Of a stretch of 36,286 nt of DNA, positions 7,926 through 29,113 are shown in pieces (position 1 is the first letter of the stretch; each line of letters opens with the position of its first letter). The DNA lies in IMG/VR virus record IMGVR_UViG_3300044613_000659, positions 1 through 36,286 of that record; one strand, given 5' to 3'. The stretch comes from a virus. Under the pieces are notes generated by a model that worked only from the letters and a program-made list of their open reading frames with translations, searched no databases and was not told the origin of the DNA. The translations under genes and the position numbers were made by a program.

Positions 7926-8399
7926 TTAAGCCTTTGGTCGAGCAATTGCCATAATGGTTTTGTAATCACGCTTCTTCAAATAAAATCCATCACCATTGGA
8001 CTGAGAGCCAGCCTTACCTGAAGAAGTATTTCCTTCATAAACTTGAACATACTTTAGAGCGGTGTTATGCCATTTAACAATACCTACATGGTCAGGTTGA
8101 GCGTCTTCATCGAACTGGAAGAAAACTATGTCGCCGGCCTGAGCCTGTCCGATTGGTACGAGTTGGTTATTCTTAGTCAAATACTTTAACCAAGCATCGC
8201 AAGAGGCAAATCCTTTTTTAGTATTAGCAACTGCTGTAATCCCACCAGCATCAAAATACATCTTTGAGGCAGACATCGCGCACCAAGGTTGATTATTAAG
8301 TCCATACCACTTACCAAAAATGGTGTCGTTGTTAGGTCCTTCTGTATAACCAATAGAAGCCTTACACAACTCCATTAACTTCTTAATATCTAGAGCCAT
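7926..8399 (-). CDS. CHAP-domain endolysin, 157 aa
   Basis: A single CHAP (cysteine-histidine amidohydrolase/peptidase) domain fills the protein. The nucleophile is Cys40 in NQPWCAMSAS, the base His104 in PDHVGIVKW, and the third polar residue lies in YEGNTS (Glu122 or Asn124). These enzymes cut peptidoglycan stem peptides or amide bonds for lysis. There is no separate wall-binding domain and no signal peptide, so release should depend on the holin. The ATG overlaps the holin stop by one base, and a strong terminator follows. Confidence 0.88.
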   Translation of the reverse strand: MALDIKKLMELCKASIGYTEGPNNDTIFGKWYGLNNQPWCAMSASKMYFDAGGITAVANTKKGFASCDAWLKYLTKNNQLVPIGQAQAGDIVFFQFDEDAQPDHVGIVKWHNTALKYVQVYEGNTSSGKAGSQSNGDGFYLKKRDYKTIMAIARPKA

Positions 8400-8641
8400 T
8401 ACTTTTCCTTTCGTTTATCAACCTTTGCAAACGCATCGTTGATTTCATCACGAGTCAATCTACCATCTTGAAGGAAGGAACGCGATAAGGCTTCTACAAC
8501 AGTCGATACTCCTAGAAGTCCAGCCATAAAAACAGCCGAGAGAGTATCAATTCCAAAGACAGCACCAGCGCCGATTACTGATAAACCTGAAGCCGCAAAG
8601 ACGGCTAGGATTCTTAAAAGTATGTTTCCAAGATTATTCAT
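8399..8641 (-). CDS. Holin, two membrane segments, about 80 aa
   Basis: There are two hydrophobic stretches (NILLRILAVFAASGLSVIGAGAVF and LSAVFMAGLLGVSTVVEAL, each partly quoted) followed by a short charged tail with DGRLTRDEINDAFAKVDKRKEK-type sequence. This size, topology and ending match r1t-like phage holins, and the gene sits directly before the endolysin. An in-frame GTG at 8647 would add two residues and is an equal alternative start; the two starts six bases apart resemble dual-start holins, though this is speculative. Confidence 0.8.
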   Translation of the reverse strand: MNNLGNILLRILAVFAASGLSVIGAGAVFGIDTLSAVFMAGLLGVSTVVEALSRSFLQDGRLTRDEINDAFAKVDKRKEK

Positions 8642-8810
8642 TTTCACTTCTTTCTTTTCGTATTGGGTAAGTAATAATCCATACCACTATCGAAAACATA
8701 ATTGCGTACCCAACAATGCCTTTGGCTGTTCCATCAAGAACAATCCAAGCAATAAACATTCCAAGAAGGGTGAATAACTGACCAATCAAATCTACAAAAA
8801 ACGCTCTCAT
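8634..8810 (-). CDS. Small two-segment membrane protein of the lysis cassette, 58 aa
   Basis: This short gene reads [19 protein letters not shown] at its N-terminus, then [18 protein letters not shown] as a second hydrophobic segment, and ends with [13 protein letters not shown] lies six bases before its ATG. Its start overlaps the stop of the lectin protein gene (ATGA) and its end overlaps the holin start, so it is coupled to both. Position and topology suggest a holin partner (second holin, antiholin or membrane accessory). No named family recognised. Confidence 0.75.
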
Positions 8811-11080
8811 GCATTTCTCCTATAACCTACGGCTCCAACTGCGCTTGCGGCGACAGTCGTTGCGGCGATGTTTCCAACAATGGTGGCGGCTACAACTGTT
8901 TTAGTCGCTTCTTCTCGTTCCTCGTCAGACATATCGGCTCCAAGATTTCCAAGAGCAAAAATAAGTTGAGCAGGACTTTCAAAGAGAGCGGATAACATCT
9001 CGGCTGGGGACTCGAGTAGTTCAAGGGCATCTGCAACTACTGCTGTAATTATAACTTCATTTCCATTTTCGTCCGTTCTTACCTCGACTGGTTGCGTGTC
9101 GGGTAAGTCTGAATAATCAAGACCAGCCTCGGCTATTGCTTCTGATGTGACTGCTTGACCTTCAGCGGCTTGGATAAGAACTTCAGCAACAAGTTCTTTT
9201 TCGGCTTGTGTGAACTTACCATCGGATGAAAGAGTCTCGGAAAGATTATTTACTTCTTTTTGAGTAATTTCTCCATCACTATTTAAAGAATCTACTATTG
9301 CTTCAACATCAGCCTCAGTAATTTTTCCATCTTCTAAAGCATCCGTTAATACTTCAGCAGGTGCCAGTTCGACAGGAGTTGGCGGCGCTTCTTCCTCTAT
9401 TGGTGGTTCAATTTCTTCGACAGGAGGTTCAACTGGAATTGGCTCAGGGTCAGGAATCGCAATCGGCGGTTCTTCTTCTATTGGTGGCTCAACAGGAATA
9501 GGATTTGGTTCTTCAACAACAGGAGGTTCAGGAGTTGTTTCTTCTACAGGTGGCGTTGGCTCTGGCTCTATTGGCTCTAATGGGACTGGCTCTACTGTCG
9601 GCGGTACTGGCTCGGGATTCGGAGTTGGTTCAACAGGAGTTGAAGGAATTGGAGTTGGAATTGGTTCAGGTTCGACAGCAGAAGGTGGAGTTGGAGTCGG
9701 CGTTGGTGTTGGCTCAGGCTCGTTTGGCTGTTGTGGTACGGAAGGAGTAGGAGATGGTTCAGGCGACACAGGAGTATTACTTGGCTCGGGTTGCGGAGTT
9801 GGAGAAACAGTTGGACTTGGTTCAGAAGGAGTTGGTGTTGGGGATGGAGTCACTTGAGGCGAAGGTTCGGGAGTTGGAGCAGGAGTTGAAGTGGAAGTCG
9901 GCTCGGGTGATGGCGTTGGAGTTGGACTTGGAACGGGCTCGGGAGAAATTGATGTGGAAGGAGTAGGTGCGTCTCCGTAACCTAAACTAACAGCCAAAGA
10001 TTTATAAGTCCCACCACAAGGGTCACCAAATACATCGTTAATTGCCATAATGGTTGCAATTGCTTTTCCTAAAAACATTTCAGCAATTTTTTCAATTGAG
10101 TTTGGTGCGTGGCATTGACCAATTGAATATCCGTTAGGCGTTCCGTAACTTGCAAATATAACTGAAGTAAAAATCTTCCCAATAGGAGCAGAAAGAGTTA
10201 ATTGCCCTCCTTCGTTTACACTACCATTAACACTATTAGTCAAAGAGGAAGGAGTAGGTGATGGAGATGGTGTGGGTGTCGCTGTTGTTGTTTCTGTCGG
10301 TGTCGGTGTGGGCGTTGGTGAAGGTTCTACAGTTGGCGATGGCGTGGAAGACGATTCAGGAGTTGGAGAAGTCGAGGGAGCGGTTGGAGTTGGAGATGAT
10401 GAAGGGGATGGACTCTGAGTTGGCTCAGTTGTTGGAGAAGTGGAAGGCTCAGGAGTAGGCGATGAAGAAGATTCTTGTGTTGGTGTTGGTGATGGCGATG
10501 GGGACGCTTGGGGCGTTGTTGTTTCTGAAGGAGATGGTGAAGGTTCTAGAGATGGAGTCGGATTTGGACTTGGAGTCGGAGTAGTTACTGAAACAGTAAA
10601 GACTGGTCCATACCAACCAGCCCAAAATCCATTATCAATTCCTGAAGCAGTAATAGTTACTTGCCCTGAAGCCGTAACACTTACACTTGTTTGTTCTATT
10701 GCGTTACCACTATAACTTTGACCATTAATTGAAAGACTCCAATTATCTGCAATTGGAGAGCAACTACCAATGCAGTTAGCAATTGTGTTATTGATAGAAA
10801 CAGTTACAGTAGAACCGTCTGAAACTGTTGTGCTGTATGTAGCAGTTCCACCTTGATAATCAAATTGAACAGAACTACCACTTACATTTGCGTTTGTTCC
10901 AACCCAAGTATCTTCGGCATACGCCATTGAACTCATAGCAAGATTAAATGAGAAGCCTAAAAATAAAGAGCAAAGAAAAACCCCCCACTTGCTTATGCTT
11001 GGGGGGGTTTTTGTTTTGAATAACTTTGGTATTTTGCTTACCTCTTTCGAGTTAGGCTTGAGCCTCGGTCCATGAAACAC
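8807..11080 (-). CDS. Exported, membrane-anchored Pro/Ser/Thr-rich protein with SUEL-type lectin domain, 757 aa
   Basis: The start is uncertain: GTG at 11080 overlaps the previous gene by 29 bases. Residues 31-55 are a signal peptide ([14 protein letters not shown], cleavage after AYA before EDTW). A beta-rich domain (56-165) follows. Low-complexity Pro/Ser/Thr/Glu linkers span 167-279 and 371-575. Between them, 284-367 match a galactose/rhamnose-binding lectin (SUEL) domain: [15 protein letters not shown] and [17 protein letters not shown]. The C-terminal region has three DG-K/E-I/F-T repeats (583, 602, 620) in helices, then a membrane segment (about 727-752) ending YRRNA. Sec export and anchoring in the host envelope are inferred. 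Lying between tail and lysis genes, it may be an adhesin, a surface decoy or an envelope-linked lysis/exclusion factor. An intrinsic terminator lies inside its 5' end. Confidence 0.75.
9370..10580 (-). repeat. Low-complexity coding repeats (Pro/Ser/Thr/Glu linkers)
   Basis: Two tracts of short degenerate codon repeats (about 9370-9970 and 10245-10580) encode alternating Pro with Ser, Thr, Glu or Val in the lectin protein. They flank the lectin domain symmetrically. The distal tract shifts from SPTP-type to EPxPVEPP-type repeats towards the C-terminus. Such DNA can expand or contract by slippage, so length may vary between related phages. Confidence 0.7.
10976..11012 (-). terminator. Intrinsic terminator inside the 5' end of the lectin gene
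   Basis: On the minus strand AAAAACCCCCC is followed after about 15 bases by GGGGGGTTTTT, giving an 11-bp stem whose 3' arm ends in a U-tract: a textbook Rho-independent terminator. It lies 40 bases past the stop of the 1000-residue tail protein, so it probably ends much of the structural transcript. It also lies inside the codons for residues about 23-35 of the lectin protein if that starts at 11080. Confidence 0.75.
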
Positions 11081-14054
11081 GGCCTGCTACCTGAATGGCT
11101 GAAGGAGTTAGATTTGTTACAAGAATAGTAAGAACATCGGGTCCATCAGGATAAATCTGTTGGTTAGCCAAAGTTGAACCGCCACCCATAATAGAGTTAC
11201 CAAGGTCGCGCAAAGTTGTGAGAGAGATACGGTCTGTTCCTTGAGATAAGAAACCACCAGTTACTTCTCCACCGCTTACTGTTGTCGAACCACCAGCGTA
11301 GTCAGCAATTTGAGCAAGAGATGAATTAACTGCTGTTAAAGAGTTACCTGTTGGGCTTGTCCATGAAGTAGCCGAAGAAGGCAATCCATTAAGTACTGCG
11401 GTCACAAGATAGTTTGAAGATGGAGATGCTGTCGTCACACCAACAGATTCCATTTTCAACTGCATACGATTAACAAGTTCACGAACACCAAAGGCGGCAC
11501 CAATACCATTATCAACAGTAGGTGCTACACGAATAGACATAAGTGCCTTTGTTTGAAGACCTGTAAAGGTAAGCGTTACGCCTGCATTTGTTGCTGTTGC
11601 TGGAAGACTCAAAGTTAAAGTTGTTCCTGAGATTGCTTGGACAAGAGTTCCTGCTTGAATACCTGTTCCTGAAACAGATAAACCAACAATAATGTTTGCG
11701 TTAGCGGCACCCAAAGTAACGGTTGCACTTGTATTAGTTGTGCTACCTGATGAGGTAGTTCCAGTTGAAGAACCGAGAGCAGTTAGTGTGCTCTGTCCAT
11801 AAGTAAAGATAAGTGACTTATCCTCATCAAATCGACCATCCATAATTACTGAGGTTCCCCAGTGAGAAATAGTTGGAGCGTAAGTTGGTTGAGATAGTTC
11901 AACTAAAATAGGTGAGGCGGTTAGAGAAGTAAATGTAAAGACTTGAGGTGAGCCAATATCCATTGGAGGAATAGTTAGAGTTGGATTAGCACCAGTAACG
12001 GCAACACTTAAAGTAAAGGTTGTTGCAGAGTTAATTGCTTGAATGTATCCACCTTCAGGCACATATCCATTTACTAAATCATAAACTTTTTGACCAACTT
12101 GTAGATTTGTTGTTGAGGCAACCGTTACTAAGTTTGAGCCTGAAGTAACTGTTGAAGATACGCCAGCAGGGATACCTGCCTTAGAGCGAGTAAGACCAGT
12201 AAATTGAGTTGCAGTCTTGCCTGTGTAATTAACAAATTCAATTTGTGTGTTATTACGGACAAGTAAAGTTCCCGCTGAAGGGAAGTCGGCAGTTGATACA
12301 ACAGTCATTACACCATCGCCTGCCTGAAGCGTTGCGCCTAACTTTGTGTAAGGAGGCTCCATACGAGTTTCGTATCTTGCAGGAAGGTTACCTGAACGCA
12401 TATAGGCTTCGGCATTAACATTGTTATTAACCATTTTGTGGCAATAAGTAACTGTTCCATCAGTTGCTCTAAAGCCCCAACGGATTGCTCCAGCACCATA
12501 CCAAGTGTAATCAATATAAAACATTTGCATCTTGCTTAAGTCAATGTTGTAACCGCTTGTTCCAGTTCCATCCATCTTGTCGAGATTCCATTGTGATTGA
12601 GGAATCCGAGTATCAACTGTCTTTGTTATTTGAACCATTGAAGCAGTTGCGCCTCGATAAGCAGGAGTAATTGTGAAAGTATTATCATCAGCAATACCAA
12701 TTACTCGGTAGGATTGACCTCTTGCAACAATAAAGTTACCAATTTCTAATTGAGTTAAACTTTGAGTTGGAAATGAAGAAGATGTTCTTGTTACTTGGTC
12801 TGAGCCATTAGTAAGCGTGTATCGACCAGGAAGTTGGAAAGTAGAGGTTCGGCGAACGACTTCTAGATTCTGGCCATCGAACTCAAAGAACACTCCGTTT
12901 TGGTCATCGAATAAACCTAGACGATTAACGGCTCCGTACCAACTATTAACAGCAACAATGAAAGGTCCTGTTGCAGTAGCAATAGGTGGAGTAGTGGCAG
13001 TATTAAAAGTAAAACGATTGTAAGAAATAATAGAAGCAACTGTAAATGTGCCGTTGTAAGTAGAGTCGTTAGATACACCTGAAACTGTAACGGTCGCACC
13101 AGTCCATAAGTTGTGGCGTTCTTTAACTTGTACAGTAACTACAGTTCCTGATGAAGTCATTGAATCTACTTGTAAAGTTGGCTTTAAAATTGTTCCTGAA
13201 GAAATCTGTAAGCCTTTACCAGACTGGTATCGGAAGTAACGACGAGTTTGGCGAATAGCGGCTTCGTAATTTGAATTACCATTAGAAGAAAAAATAACTC
13301 CGCCGTCAAACGGACGGTGCTGGAATTGAGCAGAAGGTCGAACATAAAGGTTCATGCTTCCAACGCTTAAAGATGAAGGCGTTCCACTTGCATTGTCCAC
13401 ATAGTAAGTAAAAGTTGTAGGCGAACCTAAAGTTGCTACTTCCCATGCTCCGTTTGGTGGGTTTGTTCCTGTAATACCAGTTACATTTATTTCGTTACCA
13501 ATAGCAAGACCGTGTGGAGTTGGAGTTGTTACCGTTACTGCTTTACCACTTGTATTAACAATGTAGGAACCTGTTGGGTTAATTTGAGCGTTAGTAAAAA
13601 AGGTCGCTGTGTGGATTGTGGTTTTACTTGCATCAAAGATTGCTGTAAAGGCGCTGTTGTTTGTTGCGCGAGCCTTATAAGTCCAGACAGTTGTTCCGCC
13701 ACCTGACTCAATTATGAAGTTTCCATTAGCAGGTGTTAATAATGTATCGCTAACAAAAATTGGAGTTCCGTTTGCTGGTGCTACTCCCGAACCAAGGGTA
13801 ACGATTACTTGTCGGGAGTTAGCAACATACTGCATTGATACAATGTTCGGAATAGAGTTAGGACTTGCAAAAGCAAAAGGCATATTATTTACAACCGCTA
13901 AGTTTTCCCACTTGGTTGTCTGCTGACCATACTCAAAGTCGGTATCGATAAGAGATTCAGGTTGAGCAACACGAAGTTTATTTGTTGGGTCGTACAAGAT
14001 TTCAGTTGGAGTGAAAGTCGTTGTAGTCCCTACGGTAGAGGTTGTAATTGGCAT
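11052..14054 (-). CDS. Large virion structural / tail protein, 1000 aa
   Basis: This is a long Thr/Ser/Gly-rich beta protein without signal peptide. It resembles virion structural proteins found in marine and freshwater tailed phages, with [31 protein letters not shown] and [16 protein letters not shown] segments in the middle. Two copies of a small beta module are visible ([13 protein letters not shown] followed by TTFTYYV, and [15 protein letters not shown] followed by YNRFTFNTA), and a further similar strand set occurs nearer the C-terminus. It follows the OB-fold and tail hub genes, so it is likely a tail-tip or side fibre protein. The exact place in the virion is unknown. Confidence 0.75.
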
Positions 14055-26959: not shown

Positions 26960-27056
26960 CTTTGTCCTTTTTAAAGAAGTGTTCGGCTTCTTTATCTGCC
27001 CAGTCGTTATTTAAAAAGAAATCAGAGACCCATTTCCTTGCGCTTTTGAGTAGCAC
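26946..27056 (-). CDS. Possible small charged protein, 36 aa
   Basis: A short frame from GTG (GAGG nine bases upstream) overlaps the 3' end of the kinase gene and the DUF2061 start. It encodes LLKSARKWVSDFFLNNDWAD followed by a charged tail KKDKDESN. It exactly fills the 62-base gap between the two genes, with coupling at both ends, which is the main reason to list it. It may be chance. Confidence 0.35.
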   Translation of the reverse strand: MLLKSARKWVSDFFLNNDWADKEAEHFFKKDKDESN

Positions 27057-27777
27057 TAATAGCCTCAATTTCATCTCCTAACTTAACTTGCTCAATCTTA
27101 TAGCCGACATCTCGCCCATAAACGATATTAGTAATGTTAGGAAACTTAACGACCATAGCGTTTCTCATCTTAGGGTCGGCTTCAATAAAGGTCTTTACTT
27201 CAGCAAAGGTAAGAGGGTCTTTCTCGCTTGTCTTGTAGGTGTTACGAACTCCAAGAACTACTTGGTCTGTTCGCTTCTCAGCCTCATCATAAAGAGCGTG
27301 GTGTCCTTCGTGCCAAGGTTGGTAACGACCAAGCATAAGAGTTGTTGGCTTTCGCCAATCATAAAGACCACAATGAAAGATAACTAATTCTGCTTCTTCA
27401 GCAATAGACATACCTTCGGGGATTTCGACATCAAAGTAAGTTGGGTCTTCCCACATCTTATTTGTATCTACAAAGCGACCTTCTTCAATTCGATTAACCC
27501 AAATAAGATGGTCGGGAACTCCAAAGGCATCTCGGGTTTCCATAGTTGGACAAATAAAGTCCACAATAACTATCTGACCTTGCTCGTCAAGTAATCGAGC
27601 GAGCGCACCTAAGCGCCGAGCGTTCTCGATTCTATCTTCAATACTAAAGGCTAAATCTTTATTAAGGTCGGCTCTTACTTTATCGGCATTAATATGAATA
27701 CCATTAACGCGGTCTGCTAGTTCGACGGCAAGTGAGGTTTTACCTGAACCTGCTTGACCTATAATTTGAATTATCAT
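27022..27777 (-). CDS. APS kinase-like domain fused to HxGH nucleotidyltransferase, 251 aa
   Basis: Start at 27777 has AAGGAG just upstream. Residues 1-125 are an adenylylsulfate kinase-type P-loop domain: GQAGSGKT (7-14), INADKVRADLNKDLAFS (29-45, with the D-x-x-R of APS binding) and DRIENARRLGALARLL. The lid region after RFVDTNKMW differs from standard CysC. Residues 143-251 are a nucleotidyltransferase domain with LGRYQPWHEGHHAL (HxGH at 156-159) and the ISATQKR ending, like NMN/cytidylyl/ATP-sulfurylase-type enzymes. If the second domain made APS, the protein could make PAPS from ATP and sulfate; that is inference, and NMN or cytidylyl transfer is possible. The sulfotransferase nearby gives a use for PAPS. 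Confidence 0.85.
   Translation of the reverse strand: MIIQIIGQAGSGKTSLAVELADRVNGIHINADKVRADLNKDLAFSIEDRIENARRLGALARLLDEQGQIVIVDFICPTMETRDAFGVPDHLIWVNRIEEGRFVDTNKMWEDPTYFDVEIPEGMSIAEEAELVIFHCGLYDWRKPTTLMLGRYQPWHEGHHALYDEAEKRTDQVVLGVRNTYKTSEKDPLTFAEVKTFIEADPKMRNAMVVKFPNITNIVYGRDVGYKIEQVKLGDEIEAISATQKRKEMGL
27760..27765 (+). promoter_or_regulatory. Candidate -10 element for the plus-strand gene
   Basis: A consensus TATAAT lies 24 bases before the ATG at 27790, inside the 5' end of the kinase gene on the other strand. No good -35 hexamer is present at normal spacing. It would give a leader of only about 15 bases, consistent with the missing Shine-Dalgarno sequence. Chance occurrence in AT-rich DNA is possible. 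Confidence 0.35.
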
Positions 27778-27789
27778 TAGACTCCTTCT

Positions 27790-28470
27790 ATGGGAACTCA
27801 GACTATCTATTGGGCGGCATTTAATCAAAACTCTACACCTGATTTAGAACTTAAGTCACTTGTTCGACATATTTCAACTACTCAAAGTAATCACATTGGA
27901 AGTAATCAAGTCGCCTGTCCAGCCATACGAAGTAAGCACACCAATACTTTTTATAGCACTTTTCCTTACGACCTAGAAGTTATGTTTAAAGATAAGTTAA
28001 TAACTAATAAACCTGAGGTCATTGAACAACGAACTGGGCTATATGAAAACTCGTATGCTTTTAACTGGCATTACAATCGAATCTTCTTCTCAGCGGTTCC
28101 TCAGATAATGGAAACTAGCCCAGCCTTCCTCCATCGAACTACTTATTCTCAATACGGACACGCACCAAGCGGAGCCTTTGACATAGGTAAGTGGTTTAGA
28201 CCGTCTGCCCCGACTTTTCAATTATGGTCAGGAGTTAATGAGTTTAAGGTTTCAAAGGGTGAGGCTCATTTGTATTTTAACTTTCCCTCTAAAAATACTA
28301 TTGAGTTTAAACAGTTTAAAATGACGGATTTACTTTACGAGATAAGTTCAGCCTCAGTAGGTCATAAACAATCAATTCCTAAACAGAACCTTCAAAGCCT
28401 TTATACTCGATTTAGCCAAAGCGGATTTCAAAAGAAAATTATGACCGAAGTCGAAGCCAACCTTCTGTAA
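27790..28470 (+). CDS. B-family accessory protein, inverted copy, 226 aa
   Basis: This is the only plus-strand gene in the window. It is a diverged paralogue of the protein at 29817-30533: both start with QTIYWAAF/KTIYWSPF, share an IFFSAVPQIMETSPAFLH / IFWSEEPLQMTTSPAHYH block, a G-x-FDIGKWFRP / MDIGKWFRP block, and a C-terminal region with LQSLYTRFSQSG / LQYLYDKFMKRG. No signal peptide or membrane segment. Similar proteins occur in marine and freshwater phages without known function. It lies 12 bases from the divergent kinase start and its 3' end overlaps the sulfotransferase end by 32 bases, so it was probably inverted during a rearrangement. No clear ribosome site. Confidence 0.82.
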   Translation: MGTQTIYWAAFNQNSTPDLELKSLVRHISTTQSNHIGSNQVACPAIRSKHTNTFYSTFPYDLEVMFKDKLITNKPEVIEQRTGLYENSYAFNWHYNRIFFSAVPQIMETSPAFLHRTTYSQYGHAPSGAFDIGKWFRPSAPTFQLWSGVNEFKVSKGEAHLYFNFPSKNTIEFKQFKMTDLLYEISSASVGHKQSIPKQNLQSLYTRFSQSGFQKKIMTEVEANLL

Positions 28471-29113
28471 AGACATCTAAGGCATTTGAATACTTTTGTA
28501 TTACATAATCCGATAACACTTCTTCAGGTTTAGTCGAGGACTTACTTATCTGAGGACGGATAGTATGGAGTGTTGGAATGCCAAATTCTTCTTCGTCTTC
28601 AGAGTTATCGTGTTGAGGGATGTTTTCAAAGTCGTGTTCATAGTATTCAATTTCTAAATAGTCATAAATCTCAGTAACTATTTCTTTTGGATTTGTTACT
28701 AAATCGTTATAAGTTATTAAATGGAACCATTCTTGATAAACGCCAGCGTTTTTTAACACCGAGTTTTCTAATTCAATTGCTCCCGAAGGGCGCATTAACC
28801 AGTCACATCTTGCGTCGTTAATTGGTCGATACGACAAAGAAGGGAATTTTTGTTCGAACATTAACTTATCAATAAAATTAACCTGCGGATATTGCTCTGC
28901 AAGTTTTATGAATGAAGCCAATACTTCAAGAATAGGTCTATAAGTTACAAGAATTTTTGGCTTATTCATTGTAAGCAATTCAGGTAAAGATTCGTCTGTT
29001 CCCCAATATCTTCCTTTGGTAAGGTTAGATAAATTGGGATTTTGTTTTAAGATATTAAAAAGTAATGTGCTTCCGCTTCTAGGCATACCACTAATGTAAT
29101 AGTTGTAACTCAT
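28439..29113 (-). CDS. PAPS-dependent sulfotransferase, 224 aa
   Basis: The N-terminus YYISGMPRSGSTLLFNIL contains the 5'-phosphosulfate-binding loop (residues 8-16). The 3'-phosphate-binding segment is ILVTYRPILEVLASF, with Arg59 and Ser67 in the expected positions. A downstream HLITYNDLVTNPKEIVTEIY segment is also typical of this superfamily. The acidic stretch EDEEEF is unusual but is in a loop region. The enzyme should move sulfate from PAPS to a hydroxyl or amine; the acceptor is unknown (phage fibre, glycan, lipid or small molecule). It overlaps the A-family gene upstream by four bases, and lies near an APS kinase-domain gene. Confidence 0.87.
   Translation of the reverse strand: MSYNYYISGMPRSGSTLLFNILKQNPNLSNLTKGRYWGTDESLPELLTMNKPKILVTYRPILEVLASFIKLAEQYPQVNFIDKLMFEQKFPSLSYRPINDARCDWLMRPSGAIELENSVLKNAGVYQEWFHLITYNDLVTNPKEIVTEIYDYLEIEYYEHDFENIPQHDNSEDEEEFGIPTLHTIRPQISKSSTKPEEVLSDYVIQKYSNALDVFTEGWLRLRS

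Follow-up and report, generated by a model that had tools for sequence, protein, structure and literature searches.

A phage-encoded SUEL-lectin protein with a predicted membrane anchor, exchangeable heads and a probable AUA start

The SUEL or L-rhamnose-binding lectins (5h4s; CSL3, 2zx0; RemA, 8gl6) share their SUEL domain and motif with the protein described here, which differs in being phage-encoded, with a single SUEL domain on a stalk and a predicted membrane anchor. Its domain also has YGT where 5h4s has YGR, and only two Cys. In corynephages, LysZ is a one-TM protein of the lysis cassette, proposed to engage actinobacterial envelope glycans (PMC13056207). LysZ has 177 aa and a proposed N-in/C-out topology (PMC13056207), whereas our protein has ∼740 aa, is predicted to be N-out/C-in, carries defined lectin heads and has an obligate two-TM partner. 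Only the linkage to a cassette fits, and because topology and size differ we do not file the protein under LysZ. Wall-spanning surface proteins of Gram-positive bacteria are built along similar lines, with a signal peptide, exposed heads on a Pro-rich stalk, and a C-terminal membrane segment followed by a basic tail; here, however, the gene sits in a phage cassette, and an LPXTG sorting motif is absent from the protein sequence. Each part has known kin. Neither the cassette nor its start codons were found in the papers searched, a search leaving out most subscription papers, and a literature search on SUEL proteins in phages turned up nothing of relevance.

The gene lies in IMG/VR virus record IMGVR_UViG_3300044613_000659, of which the whole stretch analysed, 36,286 nt, is termed the window. 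Its ORF occupies 8807–11080 on the minus strand, the strand of all window features below, and has 757 codons counted from GTG. In that numbering the product begins with a signal peptide (residues 17–55; 10916..11032), with a hydrophobic core at ∼33–53 and an AxA-type end, SMAYA/ED. There follow an N-terminal beta-sandwich resembling CBMs and Fbs1 (56–168; 10577..10915), a Pro/Ser/Thr arm (169–283; 10232..10576; about 31% P, 26% T and 26% S), the SUEL domain (284–372; 9965..10231), and a Pro/Glu-rich arm (373–571; 9368..9964; about 38% P and 16% E), both arms being delimited by composition. A helical DG-repeat domain with the motif GADMSxEEREE (572–727; 8900..9367) was delineated from a 40-member family alignment and AF2; the model of the repeats with the C-terminal helix had a mean pLDDT of 79, and this domain found no PDB match at E ≤ 0.001. 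The C-terminal membrane segment (728–752; 8825..8899; best 19-residue mean hydropathy 1.66) is followed by a basic tail of YRRNA type (753–757 plus stop; 8807..8824), whose RR is kept in the family.

The signal peptide and TM calls rest on hydropathy and on conservation in relatives. The original prediction, an exported SUEL-lectin protein with a membrane anchor, is borne out by the ORF, hydropathy, profile matches and relatives; hydropathy agrees with its export signal, as does the AxA-type end, and with its C-terminal membrane segment, which relatives conserve. Its domain layout stands, but the GTG start from which it read the ORF is probably unused, and residues 56–168 form an extra folded domain. 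Fusion of the lectin gene to the upstream structural gene by frameshifting is unlikely, because the signal peptide would end up mid-protein.

The predicted SUEL-like core was confirmed by a profile match of PF02140 to residues 304–365 (E 3e-7; 31.1 bits, 0.3 bits short of the curated cut-off of 31.4) and by pairwise comparison with solved structures using phmmer, which matched 5h4s in all three of its SUEL repeats (E 4.9e-26), CSL3 (7.3e-14) and bacterial RemA (5.9e-8). The DPCxGTxK motif region is present and aligns to its 5h4s counterpart. We rejected chance low-complexity similarity on the strength of the profile, the structure matches and the 24 relatives of the domain in IMG/VR.

Residues 56–168 had no Pfam match. 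They were modeled as a beta-sandwich with a mean pLDDT of 83.7 in the best AF2 model and 64–67 in the other four. Best structural neighbours were CBMs and the sugar-binding domains of Fbs2/Fbs1 (Foldseek E 4.6e-4); against 2e33, VIA gave Z 9.2 and rmsd 3.0, with 103 aligned. A profile of the region picked the same F-box proteins via one loop, GxDxxxWAGWYGP (WAGWYGP), at E 0.1. Tyr279 and Trp280 of Fbs1 are required for its glycan binding (PMC4603797), and by inference we place them in the WAGWYGP loop region. The Tyr-Trp pair is also present in FBG3/FBXO44, which nonetheless binds no sugar (PMC4603797), so the loop is a lead, not proof. From these similarities the heads may bind galactose/rhamnose or other glycans.

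The lectin stop codon is overlapped by the ATG of a 58-aa two-TM partner (8634..8810). This small downstream gene had been missed when the lectin gene was placed between tail and lysis genes, a location that holds given the flanking structural gene, holin-like gene and endolysin. A partner of 54–62 aa with two TM segments overlaps or abuts the stop codon of the lectin-family gene in 101 of 102 loci; at the remaining locus the contig ends there, with the beginning of the same partner visible. Reverse scans led back to the family. Among 35 loci examined from a partner-only scan, 31 had the GADMS motif directly upstream, and the other four comprised two divergent loci built alike (L123, L126) and two truncated ones. 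A scan from the 82-aa protein encoded next gave 77 further loci; the partner preceded it in 76 of them and the family C-terminus in 75, and for the remaining two only 62 and 224 bases of upstream sequence were available. The cassette loci are not all independent, and their contigs vary widely in size and gene content.

That 82-aa membrane protein (8399..8647), whose homologues are preceded by the partner and a lectin-family gene, matched the phrog_443 holin at E 0.0066, a weak label. A better match was phrog_26427 (E 2.6e-23), named nuclease; we do not believe that label, because the protein is short and has two TM segments, and the phrog name is probably wrong. Its tail contains DGRLTRDE, a motif similar to the lectin protein's DG repeats. 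A CHAP/NlpC-like endolysin follows at 7926..8399 (phrog_21357, E 1.4e-56; PF05257, E 4.3e-6). A holin-like gene or endolysin homologue was close by in 89 of 101 well-flanked loci, and neither was found in the other 12 by the profiles used; some groups have their endolysin kilobases upstream. At four loci (L018, L019, L065 and L062) a small lipoprotein (LTGC-type lipobox, ...FRYPCQDPKNWE...) comes after the partner, replacing the 82-aa protein; in the first three the next gene encodes a membrane-type protein of 132–136 aa, while L062 has the lipoprotein only.

The C-terminal domain was found at 288 viral loci in one IMG/VR scan, of which 80 were fetched; the carriers are fragments of uncultured phages, mostly from freshwater. 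The domain had no match by tblastn in 50,697 named phage records. One pattern scan of 84,980 prokaryote genomes found the C-terminal domain in none, although distant copies could be missed, since the scan uses few conserved peptides; on this absence we rejected a host-derived surface gene. A second scan of the same genomes, with the partner, yielded one marine phage-like contig within a MAG, L228, with a divergent member upstream. This locus (L228 5938–8153) holds that member, which has an acidic stalk, together with the partner; the MAG is filed as Flavobacteriaceae, and the contig is probably a misbinned phage. BFVD holds three matching proteins of uncultured Caudovirales phages (A0A6J5NEV5, A0A6J5NGG5 and A0A6J5P6J9), the first two being 54% and 45% identical to the window's C-terminal domain. 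One of the trio is labeled SUEL lectin and one TerB_like, names that look automatic, and no description of them was found in the papers searched. The hosts of the family are probably Actinobacteriota, because WhiB is encoded in 34 of 49 records (the window record itself has neither WhiB nor a direct host link) and because the endolysin and helicase of the window are closest to those of actinophages. The Nanopelagicales and related groups rank among the commonest bacteria of freshwater, and little is known of the phages that infect them (PMC10202952); the Planktophila phages E7 and F5 are in culture (PMC10202952). Present with swappable heads in hundreds of such phage loci, the cassette would mark an undescribed infection step at the cell surface.

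Heads vary across the family. Among 60 diverse members, PA14 was found in 12 and SUEL in 12 at E ≤ 0.001, and fn3-like and other beta domains also serve as heads. The PA14 head was first identified with a region copied from L052, and the result was repeated on unaltered proteins. Four close relatives of the window share neighbouring genes that are mostly 65–97% identical, the exceptions being the tape measure (46–54%), one endolysin (36%) and one further gene (42%). Their C-terminal domain is 65–90%, and their partner 86–91%, identical to the window's; the SUEL domain is missing in all four and the N-terminal domain in three. Heads are thus exchanged between close relatives while anchor and partner stay constant. 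No matching swaps were seen in the structural and fibre-like genes compared between relatives, although one glycine-rich protein does differ. Head modules were not found on other ORFs, such as tail fibres, within the fetched flanks; seven matches of this kind were re-fetched or broken copies of the lectin-family gene.

To our knowledge, few natural AUU or AUA starts have been described, and those known throttle translation. They include infC, pcnB, ccpN and cvfC1, with initiation lowered in the cases tested (PMC13009471). The lectin genes resemble these in appearing to join a non-canonical start to a Shine-Dalgarno sequence; those four, however, are single regulators, whereas here a whole phage gene family is involved, its starts read from sequence. 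The window gene probably starts not at GTG 11080 but at AUA 11032 (11030..11032; codon 17 of the GTG ORF), because the ATA is kept in all four relatives, the GTG is lost in L026, and non-AUG starts are common in the family. The Shine-Dalgarno-like AAAGAGGT stands 7 bases before the ATA (11040..11047) and is intact or almost so in L026, L027 and L029.

In 54 of 115 distinct 5' regions of the family, the 30 codons ahead of the signal core contain no ATG, GTG or TTG, and an in-frame stop rules out such a codon further upstream in 49 of these 54. Among the 54, the best codon linked to a Shine-Dalgarno sequence was AUU (32), AUA (14), AUC (4) or CUG (3), with none in the last. At one homologous start site preceding a conserved LRxFAA motif, distinct contexts had ATA (10), ATG (4), TTG (2) and ATT (1), a mix that fits a start codon, not ordinary isoleucine. 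Among other large ORFs with a Shine-Dalgarno match, AUG was the codon picked in 236 of 309, versus 5 of 65 in the lectin family (Fisher p 5e-26, from a crude common rule, with a p value made optimistic by kinship of the loci). A codon-position check of the signal region adds little, since the third-position excess seen in two small groups was missing from a third, larger one. Dozens of distinct phage loci thus appear to use AUU or AUA starts within one gene family, and gene callers restricted to ATG, GTG and TTG would truncate or misplace the signal peptide of its members.

A terminator-like hairpin lies over the signal-peptide codons (10976..11012). Four loci conserve it, a compensatory pair included, with folding z scores of −3.8, −2.3, −4.2 and −2.6. 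A separate pattern scan did not list it, because the loop is too long for that scan. It may be a terminator of the structural operon or an attenuator of the lectin gene.

We favor, with a probability of roughly 40%, a reading in which the protein is a lysis-cassette accessory engaging glycans of the envelope. It would be a phage-encoded protein in the envelope of an infected cell, probably an actinobacterium; its signal peptide would export it, and the one C-terminal helix would fix it in the cell membrane (N-out, C-in), with the Pro-rich arms taking its carbohydrate-binding heads, one or two in number, across the wall and past it. It would be made together with the 54–62 aa two-TM partner and often the 82-aa holin-like protein beside the endolysin, and this co-production makes a late role in lysis the most likely one. 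The heads would hold on to glycans of the host envelope, with anchor and partner working at the membrane, so that opening of the envelope is helped or lysis is set; the weak starts (AUU, AUA, UUG, CUG) would keep the lectin protein, and perhaps the coupled partner, low in a late operon. In favor are the partner found at the stop codon in all but one locus, the partner and 82-aa scans that lead back to the family, heads of sugar-binding type (SUEL, CBM/Fbs1-like fold, PA14), and the exchange of those heads over a constant anchor and partner; LysZ, the nearest analogue in role, is a precedent for an envelope protein directed at glycans within the lysis cassette of an actinophage (PMC13056207). 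Against it are the 12 of 101 loci without lysis homologues, the endolysins that are sometimes kilobases off, and the weak holin label. Among the roles first guessed at, the lysis link gains most, from the holin-like gene and/or endolysin nearby. A family seen in hundreds of loci, with a fixed two-TM partner, exchangeable heads and weak starts, had not been foreseen.

Heads that could reach beyond the wall and that vary among near relatives are also predicted by masking or adhesion. Receptor masking, or superinfection exclusion, in which the heads occupy the host's receptor glycans so that secondary adsorption is blocked and progeny are spared from debris, follows the lysis accessory closely, though we consider it rather unlikely. 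T5 Llp serves a comparable purpose, but a lipobox of its type is lacking, there being no Cys at the SMAYA/ED cleavage site. The arms are long enough for the cell surface, and glycan-binding heads swapping over a kept anchor are what variable receptors would predict. Masking explains the variable heads but fits the weak start codons less well: it needs many copies, which they argue against. The lack of mirrored swaps in the structural and fibre-like genes compared also counts against it, the glycine-rich protein that differs notwithstanding. In T4, RI sets lysis timing by an outside signal through another route. A lysis sensor, whose head would read the outside (glycans, incoming phage, neighbours) and whose stalk, partner and holin-like protein would relay to lysis timing, could draw on the linkage of three genes, for an exposed head and two small membrane proteins, on the low-dose start codons and on the DG motif shared with the tail of the 82-aa protein; its signaling and three-protein contact are conjecture, and we regard it as improbable.

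Less probable again is an adhesin of the infected cell that would attach to other cells or to particles, so that hosts collect around the cell as it dies. Its domain plan is like that of bacterial stalked adhesins and its SUEL domain is related to that in RemA, but the obligate partner and lysis neighbourhood would go unexplained; the aggregation role guessed at originally has no support of its own. A virion fibre or other structural part is very improbable. The gene directly follows a virion structural gene, and tail fibres commonly bear sugar-binding heads; against this, a signal-type N-terminus and a C-terminal membrane segment run through the family, as the original view of a cell-surface protein more than a virion part had it, and the linkage to partner and holin-like gene and the weak starts also speak against it. 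A bolder reading, which we consider rather unlikely, sees a single virus-specific device, widespread among uncultured phages of aquatic habitats: the swappable lectin head on its membrane-anchored stalk, the coupled partner with two TM segments and the holin-like protein would together read or grip glycans at the surface of the infected cell and set lysis, at a dose fixed by otherwise very rare AUU/AUA starts.

Elsewhere in the window, a virion structural protein (11052–14054, minus strand) is ∼43% identical to proteins of T4-like cyanophages; set against the actinophage-like endolysin and helicase, this indicates a mosaic genome. Other minus-strand genes encode a kinase/nucleotidyltransferase fusion (27022–27828; phrog_10255, E 8.9e-78) and a sulfotransferase-like protein with the motif PRSGSTLLF (28439–29113); L228 also carries kinase and sulfotransferase-like genes similar in kind. 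A further minus-strand gene (599–1420) encodes a protein beginning MCGIAGF, by eye like a class II glutamine amidotransferase.
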